NCBI RefSeq assembly: GCF_029962835.1
Contig: NC_080588.1
Location: forward strand, 47,723,001-47,787,000
DNA from: Magnolia sinica
Lineage: Eukaryota; Streptophyta; Magnoliopsida; Magnoliales; Magnoliaceae
DNA: 64,000 nucleotides
Reading direction: 5' to 3'
Of this stretch, positions 12,781 to 43,795 are shown piece by piece. A program made the translations under genes and the position numbers. Position 1 is the stretch's first letter; the number at the start of each line of letters is the position of its first letter. The notes beneath the pieces were generated by a model. The model was not told the origin of the DNA and ran no database searches. It worked only from the letters and a program-made list of their open reading frames with translations.

Positions 12781-12789
12781 AACTGCCAA
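12781..12789. other. Left 9-bp target-site duplication of the MULE
   Basis: 'aactgccaa' directly abuts the terminal repeat and recurs exactly at 30109-30117. Confidence 0.92.
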
Positions 12790-12830
12790 GAGAAATTTCC
12801 AACTGTACGACCCATTTATGGCCCATTTAC
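12790..12830 (+). repeat. MULE left terminal inverted repeat
   Basis: It begins 'gagaaatttccaactgtacg' and ends 'ggcccatttac'. It differs from the right repeat at one base (tacg against tatg). Weaker matches such as 'cctcccca' and 'cccaaagg' continue inward to about 12,890. Confidence 0.92.
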
Positions 12831-13652
12831 CGGCCTAGGCCCACGTCATTTTGCCTCCCCAAGATACTCCGACTTGCCAAAGGCCAAAAATAACCTTGCC
12901 ATATCAATTTCACTCCATTCTCTCCTTTACACTCAAATACACGTATGGACTCACCTGTGTCATCCTTATTTCTTATTTTCACCCATTTTCTTCGCCAAAT
13001 CTTCATATAATCTCCATCATACTATTACATGACATCTTCCATGTTGCATTCTGCTCAACCCTAAGTGCATCCTTTTTTTTGAGAGGACGCCAATGCATTG
13101 ATAAACGTGAAATCTTAAAGACCTTTCTCTGAAGAACTTGTTTCACATCATTGCACTCTTATTCTTTTTATCGAACACAGATTTCACTGAAATTTAAATT
13201 CTAGGGAGTGATTGGAGTTCGCGGTCAATTACCTTGAAGTTTGAATTCTAGGTAAATTCTAAAGTGTTTATCAATTCAGTTTGTGGTCAATTTCCAATGG
13301 TCAATTTCATGCATTGCTAAGTCAATTTTACGTGGCTATCCAATAAACTTGAAGAAGTTCGCAGTCAATTTGACGAAGTGTCGAGGTCAATTTCACTTAG
13401 TTCCCGGTCAATATATTGAATTGATCGGTCAACTTCATGCACTACTTGGTCAATTTCACGCATTTTACCAGTCAAATTGTAGTGCATTTTTGTAATACGA
13501 CTATGAATTTGTAGTGCATTTTTGTAATACGATTGTGAATTTGTAGTGCATTTTTTTGTAATACGACTGTGAATGTTATATATTTGATGCATTTGTTGCT
13601 TTCTTTGAAATTGCGAATTTCTTACCACTACGATTCAAATTTCCAATAAGAC
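12831..13652 (+). repeat. MULE left subterminal region with irregular 'gtcaatt' words
   Basis: About 12,865-13,140 (with 'ttgccatatcaatttcactc' and 'gagaggacgc') recurs at 15,789-16,045 and, diverged, at about 43,860-44,110. From 13,230 the words 'ggtcaattt' recur irregularly, an apparent degenerate start of the minisatellite. Three short copies of 'tttgtagtgcatttttgtaa' follow near 13,485-13,560. Confidence 0.7.
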
Positions 13653-14667
13653 ATTCATTTCATGGTCAATAACTTCATTTCGTGGTCAATCCCCTTCACT
13701 TCACGATCAATTCTTTGCATTTCATGGTCAATTCCTTTCACTTCACGGTCAATTTCATGCATTTCACGGTCAATTCCATGCATTTCACGGTCAATTACGG
13801 CAATTCTCTTTCACTTCATGGTCAATTCAATTCATTTCACGGTCAATCCCCTCCACTTCACGGTCAATTCCATGCATTTCACGGTCAATTCCTTTCACTT
13901 CATGGTCAATTCTCTTCATTTCACCTTCAATTCCATTCATTTCATGGTCAATTCCGGCCATTCCCCTTCACTTCACGGTTAATTCAATTCATTTCACAGT
14001 CAATCCCTTTCACTTCACAGTCAATTCCATGCATTTCATGGTCAATTCACTTCACTTCATGGTCAATTCGATGCATTTCACGGTCAATTCACTTCACTTC
14101 ACGGTCAATTCCAAGCATTTCACGGTCAAATCCGGCGATTTCACTTCACTTCACGGTCAATTCCAAGTATTTCACGGTCAAATCCGTCGATTTCACTTCA
14201 CTTCACGGTCAATTCGATGCATTTCACGGTCAATTCACTTCACTTACTGGTCAATTCCAAGCATTTCACAGTCAAATCCGACGATTTCACTTCACTTCAT
14301 GGTCAATTCGATGCATTTCACGGTCAATTTACTTCACTTCACAGTCAATTCCATGCATTTCACGATCAATTCACTTCACTTCACAGTCAATTCCATGCAT
14401 TTCACGGTCAATTCACTTCTCTTCATGGTCAATTCCAAGCATTTCATGGTCAAATCCAGCGATTTCACTTCACTTCACGGTTAATTTGATGCATTTCATG
14501 GTCAATTCACTTCACTTCACGGTCAATTCGATGCATTTTACGGTCAATTCACTTCTCTTCACAGTCAATTCCATGCATTTCACAATCAATTCGCTTCACT
14601 TCACAGTCAATTCCATTATATGATATTAGGGTCAATTCACTTTACTTCATGGTCAATTCCATGAAGT
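13653..14667 (+). repeat. Minisatellite array A (21-bp unit, about 1 kb)
   Basis: Units follow TTCACGGTCAATTCNNNNCAY with a 21-bp period. They often alternate two versions ('..catgcat' and '..ctttcac'), giving a 42-bp dimer. Some units carry the variant 'ggtcaaatccggcgatttc'. Because 21 is a multiple of three, all + frames stay open for long stretches. The array lies upstream of the MURA gene and points the same way. Confidence 0.95.
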
Positions 14668-15167
14668 GGAGATTGGAGAATGGAGAAAGAGTTTGCAAAA
14701 GAAGCTCATAAGCAACCACTCCTAAAGTAATGTCTTTGGATATATTTTCTTATTTGTGTTACTCCTCTCTCATGGCTTTTAGCTATGACATTGTCATGGA
14801 TTACTTGCTTATCAAGGAATGGAAAACAACTATTCCTTGGAAGTTGCATTTGTAAACAATGCCATTTATAAAATCAACTGTTGGAAACACCTTTCCAACC
14901 ACATAAGCATTGAAAACCAACACCTTGACATCATGTGCTAGCCTTAATAAAAGATTAATTTTCATATGAACTTCATGCTTCTATTCCACATAAAAAAAAA
15001 GCTGCAACTAAGTACAGCATGGAATATCATCTCTGAGCTGATGCACAAACAATACCTAAACTGGTACAATGGTTGACACCTATAGGGAAAGCCTGAAATG
15101 GTATTGCCATGTAAACTAGTACAGCGGTTGACACCCATGGCAGATCTGAATATGAACCACACACCCC
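14656..15167 (+). repeat. Block B, inverted duplicate of 24047-24398
   Basis: Sequence from 'ccatgaagtggagattggag' to 'ctgaatatgaaccacacac' recurs in reverse complement at 24398-24047 at high identity. The left copy has 161 extra bases (14775-14935) bounded by 'catg' on both sides. These were either lost from the right copy by microhomology deletion or gained here. The block is non-coding. Confidence 0.9.
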
Positions 15168-15170
15168 AAA

Positions 15171-15356
15171 TTTTATAGCTGAAATGGTATTGCCACCTGG
15201 CTTTATAGATGAACCTTCATTGAGAAAGCCTTCTGCAGCCCGCTGATTCTCTTTTATCTGAGAAGATGAACTCATACTAGATTCTTCAAGGACATGTGAT
15301 TTGCCACCAGCTTCTGCTAAAACCCTAAATACCCGCTTATGTTCGTAATGAATATC
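15171..15356 (-). pseudogene. Candidate captured host exon (unidentified)
   Basis: On the minus strand an acceptor-like 'ctgtag' (15362-15357) is followed by an open frame of about 62 codons. It contains DIHYEHKRVFRVLAEAGGKS, SSSSQIKENQRAAEGFLNEG and GGNTISAIKFG, and stops at a donor-like 'gtgtgtgg'. Codon use and composition look like ordinary plant coding sequence, unlike the flanking arrays. I do not recognise the protein. MULEs commonly carry such transduplicated exons. The counterpart block at 24 kb lacks this exon. Confidence 0.35.
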
Positions 15357-15431
15357 CTACAGTTTGATAAATCAAAGCAACTTTATGAGTAGAAAGTAGC
15401 TGATATTGACCCCAGTCTACAAGAGATAAGA

Positions 15432-15788
15432 GTCACGGTCAATTCCCTTCACTTCACTTCACGTTCATTTCCAATCATTTCACAATCATTTCCGGTCATT
15501 CCCCTTCACTTCACGGTCATTTCCATGCACTTCACGGTCAATTCGCTTCACTTCACGGTCATTTCCATGCACTTCATGGTCAATTCCCTTCACTTCATGG
15601 TCATTTCCAATCATTTCACGGTCATTTCCGGTCATTCCCCTTTACTTCACAGTCATTTCCATGCACTTCACGGTCAATTCCCTTCACTTCACGGTCAATT
15701 CCCTTCACTTTACGGTCAATTCCCTTCACTTTACGGTCATTTCCATGCACTTCACGGTCAATTCCCTTCACTTCACGGTCATTTCCAG
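15432..15788 (+). repeat. Minisatellite array C (21-bp unit)
   Basis: Same family as array A, mostly as dimers of 'ttcacggtcatttccatgca' and 'ttcacggtcaattcccttca' versions. It points towards the MURA gene. Confidence 0.93.
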
Positions 15789-16045
15789 GCGTATGGACGA
15801 CTTGCCAAAGGTCGAAAATGCCCTTGCCATATCAATTTCACTCCATTCTCTCCTTTATGCCCAAATACACGTCCGGACTCACCTGTATCATCCCTATTTT
15901 CTCCATCATACTATTACATGACATCTTCCATGTTGCATTCTGCTCAACCCTAAGTGCATCCTTTTTTCTGAGAGGACGCTAATGCATTGATAAATGTGAA
16001 ATCTTGAAGACTTTTCTCTGAAGAACGTGTTTCACATCCACGAAA
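15789..16045 (+). repeat. Internal copy of the MULE subterminal region
   Basis: From 'gacgacttgccaaaggtcg' to 'gaagaacgtgtttcacatc' this segment matches about 12,865-13,150 in the same orientation, including 'ttgccatatcaatttcactc' and 'tgcattctgctcaaccctaa'. The terminal repeat itself is absent. It lacks about 30 bp found in the outer copy after 'catcc'. It suggests that the left arm of a second MULE was joined here. Confidence 0.88.
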
Positions 16046-16084
16046 GGAAACAATTACCTTAATTCTTATACCGTTGAAAATTAT

Positions 16085-16400
16085 TTCCTTAACTGGGCCC
16101 ACATTGATGTGCTTTCATCATCTAACCCGTCCATAGGGTCACATAGACATGGATAAGGGGAAAACACAAATATTAGCTATATGCAAAAAATTTAAAGGCC
16201 CCAAAAAGTTTTTAATGGTAGGTGTTTGATTCCCGTTGTTTCCTATGGTGTGGTCCACTTCAGCTTTGGATCTGCTCCATTTTTTTGCTCATGCCCTAAA
16301 TTCAGGTAGCATAACAAATGAGCGGTGTGGATACGTCACATACATCACGGTGGGCCCCACATTGATTTTGTAAATTCCTCGATTTAAGTGTTAGAAAAGT
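16085..16400. repeat. Dispersed MITE-like repeat remnant
   Basis: Phrases 'tgggcccacattgatgtgc', 'aacccgtccat', 'tggtgtggtccacttcagc' and 'tcacggtgggccccacatt' identify a copy of the repeat family common in this window, lying between the duplicated subterminal region and the transposase. Confidence 0.65.
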
Positions 16401-16756
16401 TGTCACATCTACATTGGGAAAGATGTGGTAATTACCTAGGTGAATAATTGTTACCCATTTACATGGTAATTACAGTTGAGCCCAAAAATCAGACTGACCC
16501 ACTCACTTTGCAGTCATTTTCAATCACTTCAAGACCAAGAAGTGAGTGAAATTCATCACGAAGTGAGCATGATGCTGCCCTATAAGTGAGTGAAAATCAT
16601 CGTAAACTGAGTGACATATCTAAGAACTTTGAAAATCTGACCACTAAGTCGATCATATTTGAGATAATACAATGGTGGATTTCCTACTACTCGGTCAAAT
16701 CCACCTTATACATGTGAATACTTAACGAGTTATATTATGGTGTTTGTTTTCAGAAA

Positions 16757-19205
16757 ATGGCTTCGGTAATGATCATATGCTCATATGGTGGGGAGTTAGT
16801 TAGCGAAAATGATCGATACATGTACAAGGGTGGTTACTCGAAGTCTACTGCCATGGGAGTTGACACTACATATGAACAACTTGTATAAAAAATACACGGA
16901 GTTGTGAAGACTAGACTTGAGCATTATGATATAAGGTTGAAAGTACTGTACCCTTGCACAAACGAATCAGTCCCTCCAGCTATAATGGAAGACGATAAAG
17001 ATGTGAGAATGTTCCTGGTAGCGCAGCTGAAGCATCCAGATCACTACATCCCTCTATTCATCGAGACAACGCATCGTGTTAATGAGGCAGTACTCGAAGA
17101 CCCGGTGGCTTACAGTGCGTTCGAATATGACACCCCAGCTGTTGTAAGTTTGGGTGAGGAACATGGATGGAAATTTGAAGATATGACATCACCTTCACAG
17201 GTTCCTCTAAGCAATACTCCAATACTCGAGCCGGCTTAGACATTAAACTTCATAACAAGTTGAGTGAGTGCATTGGCTGATGTGAACCTCAGAAGTGAAT
17301 ATGCGGCATCACCTTCATTTACAAGAGTAGACTTGCCCTCAACATCTAACGCTAGAAACATATGGAGAAGCGACATTCCAATGCCCGAACAGGCTCGAAC
17401 ATCGGACTTCACCTTCAGGTTTCCCATTGTGCCTTTCGAGGATGCTGGTTTCACCAATGCAGATCTGTCACTGTATTCATATCCACTTGATGACCCGATT
17501 GATATAGTCGTTTACCAAACATTTAAGGACACGAGCCGGTGTAAGTATGTTTTGAGCCAATTTGCAATTCACAACAACTTTTAATATAATGTCCTGTATT
17601 CCACATCAAAGAAATTTACCGTGGCATGTATGAAAGATAAGTGTGAATGGAGGGTACATACATCTAGGGTGAATGAAGCGGGGATATTCAAGATTAAGAC
17701 TTACAGGTCCATATACATGTGGAATGTCACGAATGAAGAACGATCATCGGCAAGCAAGCAGTAAGCTGGTCAGTGAACTGGTTGTCAATCGCATTGAGCA
17801 GCGCCTGGGGTTAAGACCGAAGGACATTATATTCGCAATGCAAGAGAAATATAATATTGTTATTAGTTATAAGAAGGCATGGCGTGCTAAAGAAATTGCA
17901 ATCGATCGCGTAATGGGGTCTTATGAAAACTCTTACAAAGAACTCCTGATGTACTTGCATGAGTTGAGGACGGCGAACCCAGGCACATTGACTTCCCTGC
18001 TTGTGAATTGACAGATGATGAGGTTCGAGAGATGTTTTGTTGCGTTTGGATAATGTGTCAGAAGTTTTCAAACATCTCTGCGAAGGGTCTTGGCCGTTAA
18101 CGGGACACATCTAAAAGGTAAGTACAAGGGTATTTTGTTCATTGCCATGGCTTTGGATCGCGACAATCATATCTTTCCAATCATTTTTGGGATCAGAGAA
18201 TTAGATAACAACAGCAGTTGGAACTGGTTCCTTACCTACTTCAGCGATTCATTAGGGGATCCACCTGGTCTTGTGATCATATCAGACCGGCATAAAGGTC
18301 TAATGAAAGAAGTTCCCCAGGTCTTTCAAGCAGCAATCCATGGCTACTGCGCATACCACATATACTGAAACTTGGTGGACACGTTCAAAGACAAGTCATT
18401 AGAAATGTACTATTGGCAAGCTATAAAGACTTGTAGGAGGGCTGAGTTTAAAAAGTTAATGCATGATATCGAATTTGTCAAGCCCCCAGTACATGTATGG
18501 CTGAGGGAAATAGGGTATGAAAAGTGGACATCTTCGCATTTTTCAAAAAAAAGATTCAATCTGGTCACTACAAACATAGCTGAGTATGTTAATGCTCTAT
18601 TCAAAGAAGCACGAGAATATCTTGTGACTATGTTGATAACGACCGTCAGAATGAAAATTTAAGAGATGTTTTATAAGAGAAAAGAATCAACATTATTATT
18701 CATTGAATCGTTGACACCGTGGGCCGAGAAACAATTAAAGGATCTCATACCGAAGGCATGTGATGTTCATTGCTACGCAATTTCTCGGGATGAATACTAT
18801 ATTGTGGGAGACTACAATGATACCGTCAAGCTAAACAATCTTTCATGTACATGTCGCAAGTTTGAAGTAAAAGGATTGCCTTGTTGTCATGTTCTTTCAG
18901 CATGTATAAACTATAATCTTCCTCATTATTCATATTGCTCTCAGTTTTACACAGTGAGGAATTACCAGATTACGTATGAAGCTTTCGTCTACCCAGTACG
19001 AGACAAGAGTCAATGGAAAATTTCTTTCAGATTCAAGGAGTATTCTTCAAGTATCAAGCCCCCACTACAGACGAGGTCAGCTGGAAGACCGAAGAAGGCA
19101 TGAATCCTTTCCCATGGAGAGGAACGAGAAATAAAAATATGCGGACGTTACAAACAAACAGGGCATAATCGTCGAAGTTACAAATTTTCAATACCTCTAG
19201 AATAA
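16757..19205 (+). pseudogene. mudrA-like: MURA-type MULE transposase, copy 1
   Basis: Start ATG 16757 lies just after 'tttgttttcag', suggesting a 5' leader intron. Read with corrections the frame covers 816 codons. In order it has an N-terminal domain (MASVMIICSYGGELVSEND), a MuDR DNA-binding region (about 258-330, FKDTSRCKYVLSQFAIHNNF), a MULE transposase domain with VIISDRHKGLMKEV, a SWIM zinc finger (CTCRKFEVKGLPCCH) and a C-terminal zinc knuckle. It is dead. Stops lie at 16886, 17237, about 17262, 17582, 18009, 18048, 18366, 18660 and 19101, with a 2-bp deletion near 17,705. The first catalytic Asp of the DGTHLKG motif is Asn, and knuckle cysteines are Tyr. Copy 2 (45838-48286) has the same 2449-bp length with different lesions. 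Confidence 0.92.
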
Positions 19206-19323
19206 TGTAATTTGAAGTGTATATTTTGTAATATGAATGTGAATGTTATACATTTTTTGTAATACAACTATGAATATTATACATTTCTTATACTACATGT
19301 GCTGGTTTCATTGAAATTACGAA

Positions 19324-19632
19324 TTCCCTTCACTTCACGGTCGATTCCATGCATTTCACGGTCATTTCCATGCATTTTGCGGTCATTTCCCTTCACTTCA
19401 CGATCATTTCCATGCATTTCACAGTCAATTTCCTTCACTTCATGGTCAATTCAATGCATTTCATGGTCAATTTCCTTCCCTTCACAGTCAATTCCACACA
19501 TTTCGCTGTCAAATTCCTTTACTTTACGGTCAATTCAATGCATTTCATAGTCAATTTCCTTCATTTCACGGTCAATTCAATGTATTTCACGGTCATTTCA
19601 ATGCATTTCACATTCAATTCAATGCATTCTAA
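19324..19632 (+). repeat. Minisatellite array downstream of MURA copy 1
   Basis: Same 21-bp family ('ttcacggtcatttccatgca', 'ttcacggtcaattcaatgca'), on the + strand, about 120 bp after the transposase stop. It closes the array-gene-array arrangement. Confidence 0.92.
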
Positions 19633-20757
19633 CTTATGCATGTATTAAGTACAAAAGTCGTGTATTTCACATGTTTCTGGGCAACTTGTGTACTGAATGG
19701 CTTGTTGAATCAAAATGACCTTATGTAAAATCTTTAGGTGTTTTCTATTTGATGAATCGACTATCCTGATTTTTGGGCTAGGGCGCATTCACCTTGGGTC
19801 CAACCATTCACAGCCAAGAGCATGCCAACATGGCTTATTTGAACTGCTTGTGTTTGATGTTTGCAGATGGGCACTTTCAATGGGGGGTTTTTGTGATGAA
19901 CAAACTCTATGATGATGTTTATGAGTAATTATAATGAGAAAGTAGCCACATCCAATTTCAGTTCTATTCTTGCAATTTGGTTATTTCGAATTTGCATTTG
20001 GATGAGCCATAGCTTGGAGGGCGGCTTTCTGAGGGACTTCCAACTGTCGTGTACATGTGAGTCCCATAGTTTATCCAAGCAATTAATCTGATGGGCCTCA
20101 TCATGAATAGAACATGACCACCAAAACTCCTCCATTGGTAAGCTCTTTAACATTTCCATTGTTTGTGTGCAAATACATGGAAATAAAGGGAGTAGTTTGT
20201 GGGTCATAGCGGGCACTTAGTTTATGGGTCAAGACTTGCCAAGGCAGCGTTGAATTGGTCTAACTCGCTTAAGTGGGGGCCTTGCTAGCAAAATTCATTT
20301 TTAATGTCCTCCATTGTGAGTTAAACTTGATATTTCCTTTAAAGTTCTTTTAAGTAGTCTGATCCTTTTTCTTTTTCCTCTTTTTTGCATCGGTGTCTGG
20401 CAAATGGAGATTCAGCAGATCATTGATGAACACAATGCTGTTCTGGAGTCCGAAAAACATGAGTTTGAGTTGGAAAAGGATGTGGGGCCCACCAAAATGC
20501 GGGCAATACAAGCGACGCATATAATTTAAATTACATTGCTGAAAACCAAAATTATCATCATTCATTCATTCCAGAGAATAACCAAAATTACTACCCCAAG
20601 TTTGGGTAGTATAACAATATCTAAAAAAAAATAAGAAGCCCTTTACGGACATACAATATCCAAAAATACAAAATTTACAATTAACAACATTTTTCAACTA
20701 TTTCAACTACGCATCAGGCTGGGCTGAAGGACCGATACCGTGTAGCACGGTGTCATC
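19633..20757. other. Unassigned MULE interior
   Basis: I recognise no gene. A short run 'gatgtggggcccaccaaaa' near 20,480 resembles the dispersed repeat family. The frames present are short and show no domain. Confidence 0.4.
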
Positions 20758-21990
20758 TCATCTGCATGTGATCATCGACATCAGGTCCTCTAGCTTTTTC
20801 TCCACTCGCTCGACAGTTTCTTTCGTCGCAATCGTGATCTTCTGGAGCTGCAACAATCCTTCATCGTGCTGGCGAAGTCGTTCATCTTGCCAACAAAGAT
20901 GATATATAATTGAGGTTCAACGCTCTCGGTGGCCAACATGACAATGAGTATGTGGGATTGGTGAGAACGTCGGGTCACTGTGTTGGGGCCTCTCATCTCC
21001 AATCTCTGCTACCTCGGTGTCTATCGCTTTAGTCTCAGCTCCTTCAGCTTCGGTTTCGGCCATAGTATCAAGCAGAGCAGAAGAGGAAGCCGGTGTGTCA
21101 TGCAGAGCTATTCTTTTTATGTTTAATTTGGTAAATTTGCAAGGCTCTCAGGGACGATCAGTGGTGGCAAGCAATCCCACATGTCGAGACAATAAACAAA
21201 TAAGATCAGGGAATGGAATGTACACATCTCTGGTGGCTTGGATTGCTACAGCCAACTGATGCAACATGAGAGTAGGCAGAGACAGTTCAACTTTTTGGCT
21301 AATGGCATAGAGAATTCCCAACATGAATGGGGTAAGATCAGACCTGTTGGTGCCCCTGGGATAGACGTTTGTACAGAAAATTGCGTGAAGAATGCGAAAT
21401 TGTGGAGACATGTGGGTGCCACGCAGGGAGTTACCCCGATGCCAATGAATGTCTTAGCCATTGCAGAGATGTTTGGTAATTTGTGAACGAACTTCAAGTG
21501 AGTAGAAGTCATAGTCTGCAAAGCCTTGGGATTTTGTGGGAATTTCAAGTAACTGACTGATAATTGCAGGAGTGATGTGAGTTGTGGTTTGGCCAATGGT
21601 GACATCTATGGCCGGGGGGTCAGATACTGGGGAATGACAATAAGCTAAAAACCTGTATATTTGTTCATTCAGTGTCACTCCACCAAAGTCAAGCATACGA
21701 GACCAGCTAATGGCCTTGAGCATTGGTATAATGCCGTACATAACTAGACAAGACCTATCAACTTGTCTTTCATAGTCCATCTTCCTTGCCCTAAACTTTT
21801 GATATAGAGCCTCAGGAGGTGGGGGCACATCAAGGATTAGAAGTTTGGGTGGTGAATCGTTTCTAGGCAGTGGAGAGTCATTTTGGGTAGGTGGTTGAGC
21901 ATTTCTTCTCCTAACAACTGTTTTAGCACATTTTACCCTAGGATTGGAGGATTCTCCCTGATGAACCGATTTACCCTTCTCTTTTCCCAT
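20758..21990 (-). pseudogene. Plant mobile-element protein with Transposase_32-like domain
   Basis: Frame starts at 21990 (MGKEKGKSVHQGESSNPRVK) with a basic, proline-rich leader. A domain of the 'putative plant transposon protein' type (Transposase_32, PF20167, recalled from memory) follows: MDYERQVDRSCLVMYGIIPM, ITPAIISQLLEIPTK, then in another frame FRILHAIFCTNVYPRGTNRS and LTPFMLGILYAISQKVELSL. A C-terminal coiled-coil-like end (LRQHDEGLLQLQKITIATKE) reads to a stop at 20758-20760. At least two frame changes separate the parts, so it is a relic, or introns are present. Such proteins are gag-like or of unknown role. It lies between the two MULE genes and may be a nested insertion. Confidence 0.5.
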
Positions 21991-22257
21991 TTAGAGGAAT
22001 GGCCAGCGGATATTCTTAAAGAAACGAAATGGAAATGTAGGAGATTGAAGAAAGGGACAGCAAGTAGGGATGAACAGAAAAAGGAAAATGTAGGGGAATC
22101 TAGGGTTTTAATTGATTGAAGATCAAAGGGAATTTACCAACCTTAAAAGCTTCGGATTACGGCTCGAATGCACCTCCACCGACTTTTGGGAGTGGATGTG
22201 TCACAGTTGAAGAAGAAAGAAAAAGGGAAGGAATGAGGGGTAGTAGATGCAGCGTGA

Positions 22258-23310
22258 AATAAATACACGCAACAGTTCGATATATCGAACTTCAATCGAT
22301 ATATCGAAGGAGTCCAACGGTCGGGTAAAGGGTTTTTGGTTTTTTTTTTTTTTTTTGCAATCGAGTAAACTTCGAGATGTATCGAACATTCCTTAGATAT
22401 ATCGAATATTAGTCGATGTAATCAAAAATTCGTTAAAAAAGAATAGGTAGTCTCTGGACATTTTAAGACCTTTTTCGATATATCGAGTATGTTTCGATAT
22501 ATCGAAGCACAACATATCGAAATCGATTCGATCTATCGCAAAACACATAGAATTCTTTAGTTCGATATCATCAAAAAGGATTCGATGTTATCAGTAACTT
22601 ATGCCCAATGTCATCGATTGGAAATTGATAGAATCAAAGGGCACTTGGTAATTTTACCTTCGAAGTCATCAGTAGATCCAGTGTTTTTGTAATCGAGCAG
22701 AGTTCGATTGATATCGAAATAATCTTTGATATATCGAAAATCACTCGATATAATCGAAAAATCATTTTGAAAGAACATAATGTCTTTGGACAGTTTTGTA
22801 CATTTTTTGATATATCGGGTAGCATTCGATATATCGATCACAATGATATCGAAGTTATATCGATCTATCGAAGTGGAATTGTTGGTTTTAGCTTTGAAAA
22901 GAAGGTCTTTGTAATTGAATAGAATTCGATATATGTCAAAAATTCTTTGATATATCGACATATATTCGATATCATCGAAAATTCCCTGTAAATGAACATT
23001 TAGTCTCTGGACACTTCTGGACATTTTTTCGATATATCAAATATATATTGATATATCGAAGTATAGTATATCGAATTGACTTCGATATATCATGGTGAGC
23101 TCTATGTTTTTTAGTTACGATTACATCGAATCGTATTAGATGTCATCGATTGCTTATGTTTACGAACATTGAATAGGGCTCGATATTATCGATAATTCAT
23201 TTATAATTTCACGAGCTCTCTAGAGACCATTTCCATCATTTTAGATATATCGAATGGAATTTGATATATCGAAAATATAATATCGAATATGATTCGATAT
23301 ATCATTAAAG
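22258..23310. repeat. AT-rich array of TTCGATATATCGAA palindromes
   Basis: About one kilobase is filled with perfect and near-perfect copies of the dyad 'ttcgatatatcgaa' and pieces of it ('tcgatatc', 'atatcgaa'). A larger degenerate unit recurs at about 22,432, 22,762, 22,981 and 23,205. It is marked by 'agtctctggacatttt'-like strings followed by 'tttcgatatatcga'. Spacings are about 220-330 bp. Short frames here are by-products of the repeat. Confidence 0.85.
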
Positions 23311-24046
23311 GGGATTAAGAGGCTAAGGTTTGATCATCACAAACTCTCTTCTTTTCTTTGTTATCCTTTTTCCATCGGTGACATAGGATCCAACATGTGT
23401 CAACCAATCACTGGGGCCCACACATTCTAAGATTGCTCGATGATTTGAATAGACCATGTTCTCGTTTACTTAAGGAAATTTTATAAAAAATTACCTTTGA
23501 TTTTTTATAGTTGAATAGGGGCCATTAAATATTTTAAATGTTCATCTAAAGATAGTTGTACTCACAATCATCCGTCCTTCAGTCTAATTTTCTCATAAAG
23601 GACCTCATAGGCTTCTAAGACCACTGGCCCTCTAGGCGGGCAACAAACGCAAAGGAATTCTTTTTCCTGGCTGACCCTTTATACTGGATGGGCCTGGGCC
23701 TGAGCCTGCATGTAATAAGAGCAAACGGTTCAGTTATGAAGTTGAATTTGAATCAGATTACCAAAGACTCGATCAGAACTCAAAGCCAGGCCCATATATG
23801 ATTTTAATGAGAAAGATTGAGCTAGAAGCTGAAAACCATCACTGAAAGAGCCAGGACCGGGTTTGATTAGTGCCCATGAAATGAAATCAGGCCATGCAGG
23901 ATGGCATGGAGCATAAGCACTATTATCAGATCTACGGCATTATGCACAGGCCCTTATATTCGATGTGGCGCAATTCTCAAAACTAGATTTTCCTCCTTTT
24001 TTTTTTTGGTATCCTTAAAGGAATCACCTCAAAGGGATCCCTTAAA
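23311..24046. other. Unassigned MULE interior
   Basis: No gene is recognised. A phrase 'cactggggcccacac' near 23,410 belongs to the dispersed repeat style. A stretch of 'gggcctgggcctgagcctg' lies near 23,693. Confidence 0.4.
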
Positions 24047-24398
24047 TGTGTGTGGTTCATATTCAGATCTGCTATGGGTGTCAACCACTGTACCAGTTTA
24101 AATGGCAATACCATTTCAGGCTTTCCCTATAGGTGTCAACCACTGTACCAGTTTAAGGATTGTTTGTGCATCAGCTCGGAGATGATATTCCATGCTGTAC
24201 TTAGTTGCTGCTCTTTTATTTTTTTTGTGTTGTGGAATAGAAGCATGAAGTTCGTATGAAAATTAATCTTTTATTCAGGCTAGCACATGAGAGAGGAGTA
24301 ACACCAATAAGAAAATATATCCAAAGACATTACTTTAGGAGTGGTTGCTTATAAGCTTCTTTTGCAAACTCTTTCTCCATTCTCCATTCTCCACTTCA
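24047..24398 (-). repeat. Block B', inverted duplicate of 14656-15167
   Basis: Reverse complement of block B at high identity, shortened by the 161 bases present at 14775-14935. It retains 'ggtgtcaaccactgtaccag' twice as an internal direct repeat. Confidence 0.9.
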
Positions 24399-24745
24399 TG
24401 GAATTGACCGTGAAGTGAATTGACTATGAAATGCATTGAATTGACCATGAAGTGAAGTGAAATCGCTAGATTTGACCGTGAAATGCTTGGAATTGATCGT
24501 GAAGTGAAGTGAATTAACCGTGAAATGCATCGAATTGACCGTGACGTGAAGTGAAATCGCCGGATTTGACCGTGAAATGATTGGAATTGATTGTGAAGTG
24601 AAGTGAATTGACCATGAAATGCATCGAATTGACCATGAATTAAAGTGAAATCGCTGGATTTGACCGTGAAATGCTTGGAATTGACCGTGAAGTGAAGTGA
24701 ATTAACCGTGAAATGCATGAAAAAGTGAAGTGAATTGATCGCGGA
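24393..24745 (-). repeat. Minisatellite array downstream of the Ulp1 gene
   Basis: Units read on the minus strand as TTCACGGTCAATTC.. with the 'ggtcaaatccggcgatttc' variant, as in array A. Together with block B' this forms an inverted copy of the array A/block B junction at 14.6 kb. Confidence 0.93.
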
Positions 24746-24922
24746 GTAAATGAAATTATATAATACACAAACAAATCACCATTCATATTGAAATCACTAT
24801 TATAAACACATCACTTACTACTAAATTATGACAATATATACAATACATCGTTTACATCATTTACAACAATTTACAACATTTCACAAAATGTTTCGATTCC
24901 TCTCATGCCTAAGACAAATATA

Positions 24923-25330
24923 TCATATTTTGAGGTCACTCAGGCAATCATAGGCTATTGACTTCCTAAAGTTGGGAGTGAATTGCTGCAAGTATCTCCC
25001 TAACAAAATTTTATCGCTGCACAAAATGTCGATATATTTCATGACAAAAATGCCACAATCATATCCGTTCGTCTGCTTTGGTATGGAAGTCTCTTCTCTA
25101 ACCATCCAAGCATTTCCTTCCATCGCAGACATATCTCCTGCGGTATAGAATAATATAGGTAAGGCCTCCTTCATCAGCTCGATATGTCCCTTGTATCGAC
25201 TGAGTGCCCTCGAATATAAACTTTCGAGTATAAAGATTTTTCGATCTCAAGGGTGGATGACCATCAGGTACCAATGGCTGTTAGCGTGGTTGACTGGTAT
25301 GTATATCTATCTATGTTTGACAAGATAACA
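24923..25330 (-). pseudogene. Ulp1-like cysteine protease (C48) catalytic exon
   Basis: The minus-strand frame reads HWYLMVIHP, then ILESLYSRALSRYKGHIEL, then IPKQTNGYDCGIFVMKYIDI and ends at 24923. His (HW), Gln and Cys (QTNGYDCG) of the Ulp1/SENP catalytic set are present. The Asp expected in the 'DS' position is Glu (LESL). An in-frame TGA at 25247-25249 interrupts the region between His and Glu. Ulp1 enzymes remove SUMO. In plants such domains often ride on MULEs as the second gene, and their role there is unknown. The upstream exon border is uncertain. Confidence 0.85.
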
Positions 25331-27250
25331 TATCATTATAGACATCATAGAAATGGGTACACCTAGCGTTAATAACTTGTAACAACACCATTACCTATTC
25401 ATACTGTCACATGGCCTTATGCCCTTTACGATGTTTAACAATGTTGTATACGATGAGTTTCTCCACTTCTGATAGTGAACGCACTTCGTCACTGCCAATT
25501 TCCCGATATACTCTCAATACTGACATGGAAATGTCGATACATGGCTATTATAGACAACATATATATCCAATTAGAACATATATCATATAATGAAATAACA
25601 TAATAACCATGATCTAATTCATACAATTACCAGGAAAAATGTGGGGCAGAACTTGCAATCCTTTGTATATAATGTAGGAAATGAATTTTGCCTTCTCTCC
25701 AAGAATTTGACGTACTTGTTAATAGCTTAATCAATAAAGATGGCGAATTATACTATAGTCTAATATAAGTGTTGAATAGCCATAGATGTATGTGTGTGAA
25801 TTACTTACCACGCTATCGACCCATGCATTTTCCCCCCATATGGTCTTGAACCAAATAAATTCTGCCGAATCTTTTTTTGCTTTGGCCCAACTATCCAATT
25901 CATGTAGTTCCTCCTCCGATATTACCATAAATGGATCAATCTTGGCCTGGAAGGGTATTGGAGAAGTACACAATTCTCTTAATTTCGAAGTGTCGACCAC
26001 ATTGCTTAGAGTAGTTTGAATGGCAGAGATGGAAGTGAATGGAGAACGCTTGTAGACAGATGGCTTCACCATCCTCTTAGTTATCCTCTTATATACTGGA
26101 ATGGAATATAGTGATTTCTGACAAATATCAATGTCGTGTCCATCTTAGTGTTGACCATCCATCTCTCTATTCCCCCGGTCCCTACCTTCTAATTCCTCAT
26201 ACTCCTTCTCAAACTCTTCCTTCTCCTTCTCCAACTCCTCCTCCTCCTTCCCAAACTCTTCCTTCTCCTTCTCCAACTCCTCCTTCTCCTTCTCAAACTC
26301 TCCCTTCTCCTTTTCCAGCTCCTCCTTTCAAAACTGCATCTTCTCTAAAAGAAATGCCTCCATCTGCTTCTTCAACTCTATCTTACCCTCCTCTAACTCT
26401 TCCTTCTCTAACCTCAGTTCTTCCTTCTCCCTCTTTAGCATTTCCCTCTCCATCTTTAAAACTGTCCTCTCATTCAACTCTTCCTTCTCTGACCTCAGGG
26501 CTTTTCTCACTTTTAGCACTAGTTCCACCTCCTTGCTTACTACTTCTCTCTCCTGCTTTAACTCTTCCCTATCTCTCTCCAACTGAATCTTCTCCGCCTC
26601 CAGCTCCTCCCTATCCTCCCTCGACCCCCCTGTCAATTGCAATCTTGTTCCTTCTCCCTCATCACCACTCTCTTCCTCTCCCTCATCACCACTTTCTTCC
26701 TGTCCCCCTTCTTCTCCCTCTCCCTTATCACCACTTGCCTCCTATCTCCCTTCTTCTCCCTCTCCCTGTCCCGATCTCTCTTCCATATCTTCATCAGCTT
26801 CATCGTTAATGCCCTACAAAATGAAGCAATGTATGTATGAATTATATAACATGTGAAGGTAAATATAAAATATTAACATAAAAGAAGAAATTTGTGACAT
26901 CTTACGTCAAATCTATCACGGATCAAACAAACGGCCTCCGTCTCCAGCTCCTCAATGGTAGGCTTTAATATAAGAACTATCTCGGTCTGCAAGAGAACAT
27001 CTTCGTTTTCATGTACAGAAACACACACACACATATATATAGTTGCATGGGTGATAACTTCGCTTCATAGAAATTGACTTACATATTTACTCTCTAGCAT
27101 TTTATGGATCTTCTTATACTTCCAACCATTCCATCCCCGATATCGTATGAATTATGAAATTTAGAAGGGATTGTATGAAATGATATATTCTCTGAGAGCT
27201 GGTACTCTCTCAAGGGCCCATATTTGACACAATGAAATGACAAGATGATC
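25331..27250 (-). pseudogene. Middle exons of the DUF1985-Ulp1 gene: linker and coiled coil
   Basis: Two minus-strand stretches connect the conserved ends. At 26642-26166 a long charged coiled coil repeats KEELEKEKEE-type heptads, interrupted by a stop near 26329. At 26072-25731 a linker has SEEELHELDSWAKAKKDSAE and FIWFKTIWGEN, a pattern commonly just ahead of plant Ulp1 domains. AT-rich segments between them (26,830-27,250 and 25,340-25,730) look like introns. A proline/serine-rich frame on the opposite strand is only the shadow of the coiled coil. Confidence 0.6.
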
Positions 27251-27958
27251 TTAAATAAATATAGTTTGGTATAAACTATGAATTAAATTAGACAAGGAAA
27301 GAATCCTTACTTGTAGGAAAAATATGCAACCGGTGACATTGTAATGAAGCCCTTGCAATGCCATCAAGGCACTCTCAATCCCTTCCGTCATCGTCTGGAA
27401 GGCCAAACTACCCCAAGGGTAGATATAAAAGTCTTCCAACAAGTACACAAGGTCAATAAAGTCTGTACAACATATAATATTCGTGTTGGTTCGCCTAACA
27501 AACTACTCTACACATAATATTAGGACTACCTTCATGACATCTTCGTGCTTATTGCTATCAACTAACCTATTGAACGCCTCCTGTACATGTTTATTTAGGA
27601 TAAGATATTCATTGAAGTATTTTTCTCTTATTGACTTCTTCGAACGATGGATATTGGGTATGGAGAGATCACCAGTCTTCAGCCCTATTATTAGGGTGAA
27701 GTCCATCTTGAAAAATTTTACACGGTTCCCTTGTATCTTGAATACAAGATTGCCTATATATCTCTCAACAAGTGAGTGAAAAATGGCTCCTATAAACCTA
27801 AATGATGGAATGTGTAATAAAAATGAGAATGGGGTTTGCCCAAATATATTTAATCTAGTGTTATTCTTCTTTAACCCACTCTTCACACTATCAAACCACC
27901 ATGTCAAAGAACATCTGCATGAGAGGGTGGGGGCCGACTCACCAAATCCCTTATGCAA
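27251..27958 (-). pseudogene. DUF1985-like N-terminal domain of the Ulp1 gene
   Basis: Frame 27958-27503 contains FGQTPFSFLLHIPSFRFIGA, HSLVERYIGNLVFKIQGNRV and FFKMDFTLIIGLKTGD, the layout of DUF1985. A second exon, 27448 down to about 27,305, has LLEDFYIYPWGSLAFQTM, the usual C-terminal block with 'YPWG', and an acceptor-like border between. DUF1985 followed by coiled coil and Ulp1 is a frequent plant combination, usually inside MULEs. The gene converges on MURA. Confidence 0.7.
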
Positions 27959-28417
27959 GGGTTTGTCATCTGCAAGGATGAATTGAAAATTATATCAACA
28001 ATAACATTCAATATTTAACGAAACATAATGTGAAAGTTGACTTGTTGTGGTGAAAATTCCTAAAGTATGGTGTGAGTCTGCCGAGTCGGTAGTCAGTTTT
28101 TGGTGAATTCCAAATGAAAGTACAAGACTTGTTAGTGAATTTTCACAAGTTTTGGGCCAGTTTCACTCATTTATCAGTCAATTTCATGTAGTTGACGGTA
28201 AATTTATACCAAGGTTGTCCGTAAAAAAAATGTCAATATCAAGTAGTTATCGGTCATTTTGACGAATTCCATGACAAATGGGCGACACATAGGTGACATT
28301 CAACAAGTCTACGACCAATTTCACTAAGTTATGGGTCACTTTTCAGAGTTGTATATTGCATTTTGGCCGAGAACGCCGTGAAATTGATCGTGAGTGGATT
28401 TGTCTAAGGACTGTAAA
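27959..28417. other. Upstream region of the Ulp1 gene
   Basis: No coding capacity is seen. Irregular 'gtcaatttc', 'ggtcattttgac' and 'gtcaatttcatgtag' words recur, mirroring the degenerate zone at 13.2-13.5 kb. This looks like the decayed edge of the array. Confidence 0.5.
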
Positions 28418-29178
28418 TGATTGTTAAGTGAAGGGGATTGACTGTAAAATGCATGAAATTGACCGTGAAGTGAAGGGGAATGACCGGAAATGACCGTGAA
28501 ATGATTGGAAATGACCGTGAAGTGAAAGAAATTGACCATGAAATGCATGGAAATGACCGTGAAGTGAAGGGGAATGGCCAAAAATTACTGTGAAGTGAAG
28601 GAAATTGACCGTGAAATGCATGGAAATGATCATGAAGTGAAGCGAATTGACCGTGAAATGCATGGAATTGACCATGAAGTGAAGGAAAATTGCCAGAAAT
28701 GACTGTGAAATGATTGGAAATGACCGTGAAGTGAAGGAAATTGACCGTGAAATGCATGGAAATGACCGTGAAGTGAAGCGAATTGACCGTGAAATGCATG
28801 GAAATGACCGTGAAGTGAAGCGAATTGACCGTGAAATGCATGGAAATGACTGTGAAGTGAAGGGGAATGGCCGAAAATGACCATGAAATGATTGGAAATG
28901 ACCGTGAAGTGAATGGAATTGACCATGAAATGCATGGAAATGACCGTGAAGTAAAGCGAATTGACCGTGAAATGCATGAAATTGACTATGAAGTGAAGGG
29001 GAAATGCCGGAAATGACTGTGAAATGATTGGAAATGACCGTGAAGTGAAGGGAATTGACCATGAAATGCATGGAAATGACCGTGAAGTGAAGCGACTTGA
29101 CCATGAAATGCATGGAATTGACCGTGAAGTGAAGGAGAATGGCCAGAATTGAGCGTGAAATGACGGGGAATGGCCGGA
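28418..29178 (-). repeat. Minisatellite array upstream of the Ulp1 gene
   Basis: About 36 units of the 21-bp family read on the minus strand, with 'ttcacggtcatttccatgca' and 'ttcacggtcaattcgcttca' alternating. Variants 'ggtcatttccggcatttcc' recur about every 105-130 bp. Confidence 0.95.
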
Positions 29179-29180
29179 AT

Positions 29181-29346
29181 TAAGTTAGTTCATGGTCAAT
29201 TTAACTAAGTTCACAGTGATTTAGGCTCAGTTCACGGTCATTTTAGCTCAGTTCACGATCATTTTAGCTCAATTCACGATCATTTTAGCTTAGTTCACGG
29301 TCATTTTGGCTCAGTTCATAGTCATTTTAGCTCAGTTCACGGTCCT
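29181..29346 (+). repeat. Outer minisatellite segment in opposite orientation
   Basis: Units become 'agttcacggtcattttagctc' (21 bp) read on the + strand, directly after the minus-oriented array. The core 'ttcacggtcattt' is shared but the tail 'tagctcag' is distinct. Confidence 0.85.
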
Positions 29347-29520
29347 CATCAATAACTCAGTGGGTCCTTGGTCTGTTAACTTAATCGGTGCTCGGTCTCT
29401 TTCACGGTCTTTGTTTAGTTTCACATCTCATTTCATTCTTTGTTTAAAAAACCGTCAATGTGGGCCATTTGAGTCCTGGTTTTGCTCATTTATCAGGACA
29501 TGCCATACCATTTCGTATTT

Positions 29521-29690
29521 TTAAAAAATGAAAATGGATTGTGAACCTTGCGCATTATTAGTATAATTATACAGTGGGGTCCACAGAAAGAGAGCTCAAA
29601 ATTTTTAAAAAAATGAAAATGGATTGTGGACCATGTATATATATAGTATAATATACAGTGGGGTCCACAAAAAGAAATCAAGGATTTGAA
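29521..29690. repeat. 85-bp tandem duplication
   Basis: Two copies each contain 'aaaaatgaaaatggattgtg' and 'acagtggggtccacaraaag' and are spaced 85 bp apart (ATG at 29528 and 29613). Confidence 0.85.
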
Positions 29691-30067
29691 TATACCTGTC
29701 ATTCAAAGCTTCTTAGATGGGGGACCATTTTTCGTCCTATCTTGGGCTCAAAAAAGTCGAAAAGGACGTGTGTGGGGTGTGTATTCTCGACCAGATAAAG
29801 GGGAAAGAAGAAAGCAGTAAAAGGAGGGTTTTATTGCTAGGATGGACAATCATAGAGGGGGACGAGTAATCAGAAAATGAAAATCTATGGCTAGGATGAA
29901 GGATCAAGGAGAGGTAAGAAGAAAGAACCAGGTTTTTTTGGGTGGAGACGCGGCTGGCAGCATGAGTAGGGTGCGTCGGCTGTAGTAGGGGCAGTTTCAA
30001 CCTTTGGGAAGCCATCCGTACGTATGGGGCTTATTCTGGGGAGGTAAAAAGAGGTGAGCTTAGGCGA
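29691..30067. other. MULE right subterminal region
   Basis: Single-copy-looking sequence between the arrays and the right terminal repeat. The minus strand is pyrimidine-rich, with frames such as 29737-30015 that have leader-like composition and no domain. It may carry the promoter side of the Ulp1 gene. Confidence 0.35.
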
Positions 30068-30108
30068 GTAAATGGGCCATAAATGGGTCATACAGTTGGA
30101 AATTTCTC
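30068..30108 (-). repeat. MULE right terminal inverted repeat
   Basis: This is the reverse complement of 12790-12830 with a single mismatch, ending '..ggaaatttctc'. Confidence 0.92.
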
Positions 30109-30117
30109 AACTGCCAA
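30109..30117. other. Right 9-bp target-site duplication of the MULE
   Basis: 'aactgccaa' directly follows the right terminal repeat and is identical to 12781-12789. Confidence 0.92.
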
Positions 30118-31335: not shown

Positions 31336-32353
31336 GTAATATCCCATCCTCTCAGTCCACTCGTCTGTTTGGGCATGCATATATCCCAGGGGACGACTGA
31401 TATTTCGAGCGAAGTAGTCTTCGAGCTGAGGGATTGCAAAATCCCTCTTGGATACGCAGCCATCCCTCGCTGCCATCCTTGAGCCCATCCCATGGCATTT
31501 CTCCCATCCAGTCGTACGGAACGACGAGATGGTTATTTTCAGGCGGACATGGCCGCTCGAGTTGGCGGGAGTGAAATTTTGGCGCGAACGGGTATGTCGA
31601 TAAATACCTGTTAATTTGTGAGATGGTGGTCGTCTTCGTCCCTGTGACAATGATTTCATGTGAGCAGAATGTTTAATTCATACCCATTTCAGCCGAGGTA
31701 TGCCTCCCTCTCCATCTAAATTGAAGCATCATTGTATTGATCTGTTGATTTCTTCGATTCGATTTCATAGTTTGATTTCACTGTTGATGCTTTCCTAATG
31801 GGGGTTTTGTTTCCTACATGTTGGTCCAACTACGGATTTATGATAAAAATTGGGGGTTTTGCTTCCTGCATTTGTGATCCATTGTTCCTTTCATTACAAT
31901 GTCACATGAAGTTTTTTATTGGGGGATTTTTGGGGGTTTACTGTCTATGGACTGTGTATGGTACCTGAGATGGGCCCCTGCATGTTTTGATTCATGGGCC
32001 CTTTGATTTTAATGTCGCATCGAGCTGGTTTCCTGCATGCTGTGATGCGTTATTCCTTTGATTTTAATGTCGAATGGCTTTTTTTGGGAATTTTGGGGGT
32101 TTGCTGTCTACAGACCGTGCATGGTACTTGAGATGGTTTCCTGCATGTTGTGATGCGTTGTTCCTTTGATTTCAATGTCGAATGGTTGTTTTTTGGGGGG
32201 ATTTTTCCTTTTCAGACCATGGATGTGTCTCAGTTACTGTTACAGTTCCTATGTGCTGGGAGTTTAAAATATTAGTGGGTAGTCTCGATGGGGAAGAACA
32301 TATATTGCATACTGCTTTTTCTATTTCATTTTTTTTCTTGTCGCACATATGTA

Positions 32354-32665
32354 GTTTACATCAGTAATTCGCCACTATTTCTTATGCTATTGGTGATGTA
32401 TTTGGAGTAGTTACGTTTCCTTATACTATTGGTGATGTATTTGTGGCCCATATGTAGTTTACATCAATATTTCACCACTGTTTCTTATGCTATTGGTGAT
32501 GTATTTGGAGTGGTTACGTTTCCTTGTGCTATTGGTGATGTATTTGTGGCCCATATGTAGTTTACATCAGTAATTCATCACTGTTTCTTATGCTATTGGT
32601 GATGTATTTGGAGTGGTTACGTTTCCTTATGCTATTGGTGATGTATTTGTGGCTTATATGTAGTT
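32354..32665. repeat. 103-bp tandem repeat, three copies
   Basis: 'gtttacatca' recurs at 32354, 32457, 32560 and 32663, a constant 103-bp spacing. Each unit contains 'ctattggtgatgtatttg' twice, so a shorter internal duplication preceded the 103-bp one. It lies in the 5' non-coding part of the Harbinger element. Confidence 0.92.
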
Positions 32666-43754: not shown

Positions 43755-43795
43755 GAGAAATTTCCTACTGTACGACCCATATAAGGCCCACCAAC
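43755..43795 (+). repeat. MULE copy 2 left terminal repeat
   Basis: Similar to 12790-12830 with several substitutions (cctactg, catataagg, caccaac). Confidence 0.8.

Follow-up and report, generated by a model that had tools for sequence, protein, structure and literature searches.

Oriented 21-bp arrays in a two-gene Mutator-like transposon of Magnolia sinica and their candidate role in anti-silencing

Why should a minisatellite point in the same direction as the gene it flanks? In the window, the 64,000-nucleotide stretch of Magnolia sinica DNA analysed here, the original prediction described three genes (two transposases and one Ulp1 gene), each bracketed by arrays that run with the gene. 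Such an agreement was considered hard to explain by random satellite growth, and the array core was proposed as a binding site for an element protein.

A single element with two convergent genes

The first transposase gene and the Ulp1 gene belong to one Mutator-like transposon of 17.3 kb (12,790–30,108; Table 1). It is a single autonomous-type MULE, bounded by terminal inverted repeats (TIRs) of 72 bp that are 89% identical to each other, flanked by a 9-bp target-site duplication (TSD; AACTGCCAA, 9/9 bases matching) and carrying convergent MURA (+) and DUF1985-Ulp1 (−) genes. The Ulp1 gene lies downstream of and opposite to MURA, as in KI-type Ulp1 MULEs. Both genes are broken. MURA copy 1 scores above cut-off for DBD_Tnp_Mut (29.5 bits), MULE (58.4 bits), and SWIM (36.3 bits), while the second gene reaches 65.9 bits for Peptidase_C48 (Ulp1) with one TGA read through and 45.3 bits for Pfam DUF1985 (cut-off 35.1) across two adjoining frames. 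The latter score needs read-through of one TAG, as the two pieces scored singly give 21.1 and 14.1 bits, below the cut-off. Elsewhere in the genome, some transposase pieces of the family still read open, with no internal stop, for up to 829 codons.

The window contains 170 matches to the core TTCACGGTCAATTC with at most two mismatches, against 0.69 expected. Seven single-orientation arrays hold 166 of them, the other four being three matches in an opposite array and one isolated match at 13,218; the arrays and their orientation are real. Neighbouring cores are spaced by 21 bp in 147 of 186 cases and by 31 bp in 26. In the 17.3-kb element, arrays of 21-bp units occupy noncoding DNA both 5′ and 3′ of MURA and of the Ulp1 gene, and two of them sit deep inside, distant from either end. 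The arrays are inverted between the two halves of the element, each half having one polarity, inward from its TIR, with the exception of the small array at 29,187–29,344. This + array lies upstream of the (−) Ulp1 gene within the region covered by the prediction, and 3 of the 30 core matches in the 28,415–29,344 cluster are +. This one array runs against the orientation of its gene. Moreover, the stretch 13,653–15,788, originally taken as one array, consists of two, with 0.77 kb of other sequence in between.

Nor are the three genes independent cases, since MURA copy 1 and the Ulp1 gene form the halves of one element, as its TIRs and TSD show, and the region of MURA copy 2 is related to copy 1 at 81% identity. 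At copy 2, arrays flank MURA and a left TIR lies at 43,755, but in the window and 40 kb to its right, we found neither a right TIR with up to six mismatches nor an Ulp1 match. The leader blocks that precede the arrays are 95% identical when 5′ is compared with 5′, 75–92% for 5′ with 3′, and 85% for 3′ with 3′. This pattern suggests that the cassette of leader and array had doubled before the two copies split, a signal that conversion could blur.

Open frames of 291 and 316 codons at 13,609–14,623 raised the idea of a coding repeat, which we rejected: the + strand consensus unit has no stop in any of the three frames, so that the openness is compositional. The exact 21-mer is absent from bacterial and viral collections, which says little for plant DNA.

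Table 1. Coordinates of the 17.3-kb element (element 1) and of copy 2 in the window.
Feature	Position	Strand	Remarks
Left TSD copy, AACTGCCAA	12,781–12,789	.	9 bp
Left TIR, element 1	12,790–12,861	+	72 bp, 89% to right TIR
Leader block before 5′ array	13,477–13,652	+	34-bp AT-rich repeats plus unique part; homologous block precedes 3′ array
Motif-A array 1	13,653–14,663	+	21-bp units, upstream of MURA
Spacer between arrays 1 and 2	14,664–15,430	+	first 114 bp (96.5%) and bases 268–501 (91.4%) recur inverted at 24,396–24,048
Motif-A array 2	15,432–15,788	+	90% inverted match to 28,715–29,064
MURA transposase copy 1	16,757–19,202	+	broken frames; DBD_Tnp_Mut, MULE, SWIM
Motif-A array 3	19,322–19,632	+	downstream of MURA; preceded by leader copy at about 19,209–19,321
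Motif-A array 4	24,393–24,745	−	downstream of Ulp1 gene
DUF1985 – coiled-coil-like stretch – Peptidase_C48 (Ulp1) gene	24,926–27,994	−	broken frames, probable introns
Motif-A array 5	28,415–29,178	−	upstream of Ulp1 gene
Variant array 6 (AGTTCACGGTCATTTTAGCTC)	29,187–29,344	+	opposite orientation; about 7.5 units of 21 bp; upstream of Ulp1 gene
Right TIR, element 1	30,037–30,108	−	72 bp
Right TSD copy	30,109–30,117	.	matches left AACTGCCAA
Left TIR of copy 2	43,755–43,790	+	36-bp match
Motif-A array 7	45,074–45,695	+	upstream of MURA copy 2
MURA transposase copy 2	45,838–48,283	+	broken frames
Motif-A array 8	48,527–49,515	+	downstream of MURA copy 2

Motifs, partners, and gene-less relatives across the genome

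The exact core of motif A occurs 28,109 times in the 1.84-Gb genome (control 3) and that of a second motif, B, 5,191 times (control 0). Among eight MURA copies sampled across the genome, three carry motif A, four motif B, and one the B-like motif C, all with a 21-bp period that adjoins MURA in every copy and on both sides in six. Here, 192 of 199 array units share the orientation of the gene, which upholds the predicted association in other copies. MURA identity is 69–79% between A and B carriers and 76–88% among A carriers. As the motif is wholly different between the former, MURA is a less likely binder than DUF1985-Ulp1, although an element protein as such is still favoured, as originally proposed. 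A shared origin of motifs A and B is not claimed, since their best overlay (12/21 bases) is equalled by 327 of 4,000 shuffles.

Pairing of the two genes was surveyed on 150 scored MURA and 150 scored DUF1985 matches, so that the family counts at least 150 of each. Among the MURA matches listed, 44 have a listed DUF1985 match within 50 kb (shifted control: mean 1.4, maximum 6), and 42 of these 44 neighbours are convergent, as scored on DUF1985 and not on the Ulp1 domain. In the 42 listed convergent pairs, DUF1985 identity to that of the window is 78–89% in 31, 59–63% in ten, and 72% in one, while mean MURA identity is 83.3% in both large groups. MURAs of equal similarity thus have a DUF1985 neighbour that is either near to that of the window or far from it. 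The two classes do not separate cleanly, as 24 of the 150 listed DUF1985 matches lie at 64–77%. The A-motif elements with a listed partner, namely that of the window and those at L031 and L038, all belong to the 84–100% class of DUF1985. At motif-B and -C loci, none of the 150 listed DUF1985 matches lies within 50 kb, and in the 11 kb downstream of the B element L034 there is no relative of DUF1985 or Ulp1.

Nine motif-A array loci, taken in map order with 20 kb fetched each, contain neither a detectable MURA nor a DUF1985-Ulp1 gene, yet seven of them have a MULE TIR within the fetched sequence; arrays without MULEs, which the original prediction regarded as contrary evidence, are thus seen only as far as the genes are concerned. 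Five gene-less A elements have both ends located, and inward orientation between the TIRs holds for 633 of their 637 units. Since elements devoid of genes but with TIRs of the family show the same polarity, inward polarity does not require the genes. It is no universal rule: at two of the nine A loci (L011/L012 and L025/L026), the order is mixed and no TIR was found, and gene-less B clusters listed frequently show a − then + order, counter to it. By our reading of the list, the 11 B clusters with both strands comprise − + (six), − + − (four), and + − (one). At L041, one of the − + clusters, a small A array adjoins the B array.

The ends of the gene-less elements match those of the window's element over only about 33–135 bp, or not at all. 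Where both TIRs were found by pattern (n = 4), the inverted arms match over 0.65–0.78 kb at ~86% in two elements and over 0.13–0.21 kb in the others. Clean TSDs are not claimed for gene-less elements, with 6, 4, 4, and 6 of 9 bases matching (8/9 at L019/L020 with an alternative outer end). The longest arrays observed, up to 136 units, are found at gene-less loci.

What the arrays may do

At roughly even odds (about 50%), we favour a reading modelled on VANC, in which the arrays would serve as target platforms and a fast-changing protein of the element itself, DUF1985-Ulp1, would counter silencing there; both binding and anti-silencing are argued by analogy. Counted in its favour are the DUF1985 and Ulp1 domains, the change of motif between similar MURAs, and the frequent convergent pairing; counted against it are the clear TIRs, the broken genes, the overlap of the DUF1985 classes, element L034, and the order of the B clusters. 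The protein would act as a VANC-like factor that binds densely to the arrays and coats the noncoding DNA. This coat would hold the DNA clear of CG methylation, leaving both genes and the ends usable, and gene-less relatives would retain arrays so as to be served in trans. The arrays themselves would lengthen through tandem duplication, and whole cassettes would be copied within an arm, with the result that orientation would be inherited and one direction kept per arm. Array polarity can in this way seem gene-linked though inherited from the element arms. Further, a 21-bp step corresponds to two helical turns, and successive sites would share one face of the DNA. We do not take such phasing as proof of binding, because higher-order duplication multiplies one 31-bp event, and keep it as a supposition of the model.

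The same growth could occur with no binder at all, the arrays being neutral minisatellites that expand through slippage, through unequal exchange, and as sequence is copied from arm to arm. Higher-order periods of 94, 136, and 178 bp, variable array lengths, and copying of cassettes and between arms at 90–97% identity all fit this explanation, and inherited polarity requires no function, the three window genes not being independent. Decay at CpG is likewise consistent with silent, methylated DNA: C-to-T changes affect 40/208 unit CpG positions in the window against 26/610 at other C columns, and 247/1,367 against 153/3,810 in arrays of at least six units at nine other loci. The C-to-T excess counts for the platform reading too. 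We claim this side of the decay alone, since the G-to-A excess of the window (32/188 at CpG, 14/198 at the next G) is absent at the nine other loci (165/1,186 and 154/1,313). However, neutrality leaves unexplained that the 21-bp period, mostly gene-oriented, persists beside MURA across three motifs in all eight sampled copies, and that gene-less elements retain arrays while sharing so little of their ends with the window. Core columns are also mostly better conserved than the spacer: when units are cut by period instead of by core, information content is at least 1.1 bits in 13 of 14 core columns and at most 1.03 bits in five of seven spacer columns, a difference that is partly due to two alternating unit types, two spacer columns (CA) being as conserved as the core. 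On balance, we consider neutral growth without a binder unlikely.

Alternatively, MURA could use the arrays as secondary binding sites in the manner of Foldback-like elements, whose repetitive inverted arms would load many transposase molecules and aid end pairing. The inward arrays of the gene-less elements, and inverted arms that match at length in two of four, speak for this possibility. So do Galileo, whose long TIRs contain transposase sites in their tandem repeats (PMC3688188), and Tm1, a family of the Mutator/Foldback kind with TIRs of tandem repeats and TSDs of 9 bp (PMC3169594). It is hard to reconcile with an entirely different motif in MURA carriers that are 69–79% identical, or with a full element that has two arrays deep inside and whose 900-bp ends, outside the arrays, match over 72 bp only. 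We therefore regard transposase loading as quite improbable.

Least probable by far is that host factors such as WRKY read the arrays as enhancers or transcriptional boundaries: TTGACC, the core of the W-box bound by plant WRKY factors, lies on the reverse strand of motif A and remains intact in 89 of 170 window core matches, and arrays closely adjoin both genes upstream and downstream, but motif B lacks TTGAC on either strand and adjoins MURA likewise, and the longest arrays observed are those of gene-less loci.

If the DUF1985-Ulp1 protein is indeed the binder, it and the 21-bp lining motif may change together as matched modules, with the transposase and the head-on layout held constant, a proposal that we advance tentatively and with the odds somewhat against it. 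It would amount to anti-silencing on the lock-and-key principle, in MULEs that have intact TIRs and many gene-less followers, and would allow several mutually blind transposon clans per genome. The idea is directly testable, because many elements of one genome can be compared for their motif, partner protein, and copy number.

Comparison with known systems

MuDR of maize shares two convergent genes, TIRs, and a 9-bp TSD with the element of the window. Its second gene is mudrB, in place of which DUF1985-Ulp1 is found here, and MuDR is not known to carry comparable arrays. Foldback-like elements, such as Tm1, Galileo, and Arabidopsis FARE, have inverted arms of short tandem repeats, a build that the gene-less relatives described here approach, with arrays inverted between the ends in five and a long arm match in two of four; array-rich gene-less relatives and, in Tm1, a 9-bp TSD (PMC3169594) are further likenesses. 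In contrast, the full element also carries internal arrays 3′ of both genes, and its ends, arrays excluded, match over no more than 72 bp.

KAONASHI (KI) and other Ulp1-carrying MULEs of Arabidopsis, melon, rice, and grapevine carry the Ulp1 gene downstream of mudrA in opposite orientation, as here. KI is described as non-TIR, whereas the window's element has clear TIRs; in grapevine, Ulp1 occurs in TIR and non-TIR MULEs alike. The passages available on these elements do not mention ordered minisatellite arrays. A 2026 review (PMC13317346) states that certain VANC genes contain an Ulp1 domain and act upon the clan to which they belong, and treats such genes (KIU) as hypomethylating.

The closest parallel is VANDAL21 and VANDAL6 with VANC in Arabidopsis (PMC5735166, PMC10398659). 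This precedent, named in the original prediction, proves apt, and stronger than a reader of the bare sequence could know, since DUF1985, present in the Ulp1 gene, has been shown in VANC proteins (PMC5735166). VANDAL TIRs are degenerate, while those of the window's element are clear, and a motif of nine bases is reported for VANC21, compared with a regular 21-bp unit here; moreover, the DUF1985 gene of the window has an Ulp1 domain fused. The likenesses are the presence of both a transposase and a DUF1985 protein in a MULE, dense single-orientation arrays of noncoding motifs, and motifs that differ between related families or elements. Sequence-specific transposon anti-silencing has been described, in the literature consulted, for a few Arabidopsis VANDAL families; the Magnolia elements look like a related family, in which there are at least two motif classes, DUF1985 partners both near and far, and at least 150 matches each of transposase and partner.

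One element with two convergent genes

The MURA transposase gene (+) and the DUF1985-Ulp1 gene (-), which the original prediction counted as independent cases of array orientation following a gene, belong to a single element bounded by terminal inverted repeats (TIRs) and a target-site duplication (see table). Between its TIRs, the element measures 17,319 bp, and its two genes are convergent. MURA copy 1, the transposase of this element, carries the Pfam domains DBD_Tnp_Mut, MULE, and SWIM. On the minus strand, DUF1985 scores 45.3 bits when a single TAG is read through, its pieces falling below the cut-off when scored separately, while Peptidase_C48 in the Ulp1 gene reaches 65.9 bits with one TGA read through and finds mostly SENP proteases as PDB relatives. 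Further, the DUF1985-Ulp1 gene contains a coiled-coil-like stretch, for which every match lies below the cut-off. Both genes are broken in this element. Copy 2, the second MURA region (45,838-48,283, +), retains a left TIR at 43,755 besides MURA; a right TIR and an Ulp1 match were not found in the window plus the next 40 kb.

Features of the element, its arrays, and neighboring sequences in the window
Feature	Position	Strand	Remarks
Target-site duplication	12,781-12,789 and 30,109-30,117		perfect, 9 bp, AACTGCCAA; outside both TIRs
Terminal inverted repeat	12,790-12,861 and 30,108-30,037		72 bp, 89% identity
Possible captured gene fragment, left arm	15,150-15,350	-	host-coding-exon likeness by eye
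Eighth array	29,187-29,344	+	variant 21-bp unit; adjoins - array 28,415-29,178 on Ulp1 side
Tandem repeat	32,338-32,686		103 bp, 3.4 copies, 92% matches; unrelated to motif arrays
MITE-like insertion, copy 2 left arm	44,363-44,860		by eye, copy 1 has the empty site near 13,394
Retroelement ORFs	51,333-54,262	-	LINE-like; reverse transcriptase and RNase H domains
Retroelement ORF region	60,952-63,470	-	copia-like; integrase domain

Array units and the probable inheritance of their orientation

The core of motif A, the array unit of the window, is TTCACGGTCAATTC and has 170 matches there with up to two mismatches, versus 0.69 expected from shuffles. Units are 21 bp long and often paired as a 42-bp dimer, with higher-order periods of 94, 136, and 178 bp. 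Uniform orientation, as originally proposed, holds within each of seven arrays (166/170 core matches) and breaks down at an overlooked eighth array of opposite orientation. A similar short + outlier array (n = 4) adjoins a - array in the comparison stretches L023/L024.

Nor does the agreement with three genes represent three independent coincidences, as much of it can probably be traced to related MURA regions, doubled leaders, and copied segments. Identity between the two MURA regions is 81%, and a homologous leader precedes both the 5' and the 3' array of each copy. Leader identities of 95% (5'-5' between copies), 75-92% (5'-3' pairs), and 85% (3'-3') suggest that the leader-plus-array doubling is older than the split of the two copies. 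Moreover, segments were copied between the arms: 15,433-15,787 matches 29,064-28,715 in inverted orientation at 90%, and the stretches following array 1 (13,653-14,663, +) and array 4 (24,393-24,745, -) match at 91-97%. Together, these relationships argue that array orientation in the window is probably in large part inherited.

If the arrays are divided into units by their period and not at the core, C-to-T changes occur at 40/208 unit CpG positions versus 26/610 at other C columns in the window, and at 247/1,367 versus 153/3,810 in 22 arrays of at least six units from nine other loci. This CpG decay signal, a possible sign of methylation, is weaker on the other strand (G-to-A 32/188 versus 14/198 in the window, 165/1,186 versus 154/1,313 at the nine loci); the units being interrelated, any p-values for these counts are nominal. 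Possibly reflecting constraint, information content is at least 1.1 bits in 13 of the 14 core columns and at most 1.03 bits in five of the seven spacer columns, the other two (CA) reaching ~1.6; spacer variation is partly due to two alternating unit types.

Motif classes and gene-less arrays across the genome

A MURA piece gave at least 150 scored matches among 947 candidates (76-90% identity, self excluded), from which every 15th rank from rank 2 was sampled as eight 4.5-kb stretches, ranks 122 and 137 being left out. In these copies, 192 units run with the gene and 7 against it (up to three mismatches for motif A, four for B and C); the tracking of gene orientation extends to these eight copies. 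Units flank MURA on both sides in 6/8 copies and, within the 4.5-kb stretch, on the 3' side only in L032 and L038. Motif A adjoins MURA in L031, L033, and L038, another 21-bp unit, motif B (GTTTGCCCCGCTCAATTTTCT), in L034-L037, and the B-like motif C in L032; at the same mismatch limits, the motif-A loci gave no B or C units, and the loci of B and C gave no A units. Over a 213-residue piece, the MURA copies of A carriers, those of the window among them, are 76-88% identical to one another; between A and B carriers, the figure is 69-79%, while the C carrier is closer to B carriers (82-88%). Exact motif B has 5,191 matches genome-wide (control 0), and its listed clusters frequently have the order - then +, which sets them apart from motif-A elements. 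The classes can meet at one locus: in L041, the one of these motif-B clusters taken for comparison, a motif-A array (+) and a motif-B array (-) stand immediately side by side at 1,861-2,155; no MULE genes were detected in this stretch, and its TIR-like match is weak (6 mismatches). Part of the MULE family looks young, since several transposase relatives in the genome occupy open frames of >800 codons without internal stop.

DUF1985 yielded at least 150 scored matches among 1,284 candidates. A scored DUF1985 match lies within 50 kb of at least 44/150 scored MURA matches (200 random shifts: mean 1.4, maximum 6), a pairing of listed matches only, so that partners beyond the lists may exist for the remaining 106. 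DUF1985 is downstream and opposite in 42/44 neighboring pairs; where a partner is listed, the head-on arrangement is the rule. Among these 42, identity to the window's DUF1985 is 78-89% in 31, 59-63% in 10, and 72% in one, with a mean MURA identity of 83.3% in both large groups. Outside convergent pairs, the gap is less clean, because 24 of all 150 listed DUF1985 matches fall at 64-77% (85 at ≥78%, 41 at ≤63%). A partner is listed for three motif-A elements, those of the window, L031, and L038, and in each it is of the high-identity class; motif-B and motif-C loci have no partner among the matches listed. No DUF1985/Ulp1 relatives were found within 11 kb downstream in L034 (motif B), where ORFs with Pfam matches are retroelement- or transposon-like.

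In the 1.84-Gb genome, the exact motif-A core has 14,482 + 13,627 matches (reversed control 3). All nine clusters among 100 places listed, from the first 7.1 Mb of contig 1, were taken at 20 kb each; MURA or Ulp1 pieces match in 0/9 at 1e-5, and a TIR related to that of the window's element occurs in 7/9 (pattern, ≤4 mismatches). Arrays without MULEs, envisaged originally as counter-evidence, are seen in part: MULE genes were not detected within the 20 kb, but most of the nine loci have a MULE TIR. L015 and L017 have one end each. In the five loci with both ends placed (L009, L013, L019, L021, and L023, the left end of the last by blastn), 633/637 units follow an inward order (+ then -), several of these loci sharing arms at 81-93% and hence not being fully independent. 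Their ends have only ~33-135 bp in common with those of the window's element, or no match. L011/L012 and L025/L026 show mixed array order, and no TIR was found within their 20 kb by the same pattern. Target-site duplications of gene-less copies are imperfect.

Candidate binders of the arrays

We favor the motif arrays as putative targets of the element's own DUF1985-Ulp1 protein, based on VANC precedents: VANC target regions are also targeted by RdDM (PMC10398659), and some VANC genes with Ulp1 act on their own clan (2026 review, PMC13317346). Neutral array growth with inherited polarity is a less likely alternative to such targeting. Also less likely is that the arrays are candidate transposase sites in repeat-built arms, as in Foldback elements, for which PMC3688188 and PMC3169594 offer good precedent; such sites would suit the elements lacking genes, but are hard to reconcile with motifs that differ completely between carriers whose transposases are rather alike.

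In a search largely without subscription journals, no listed title or abstract opening concerned arrays of this kind in an Ulp1-carrying MULE whose TIRs are intact. Grapevine MULEs with Ulp1, as described in PMC2528002, comprise TIR and non-TIR forms with the gene in either orientation.
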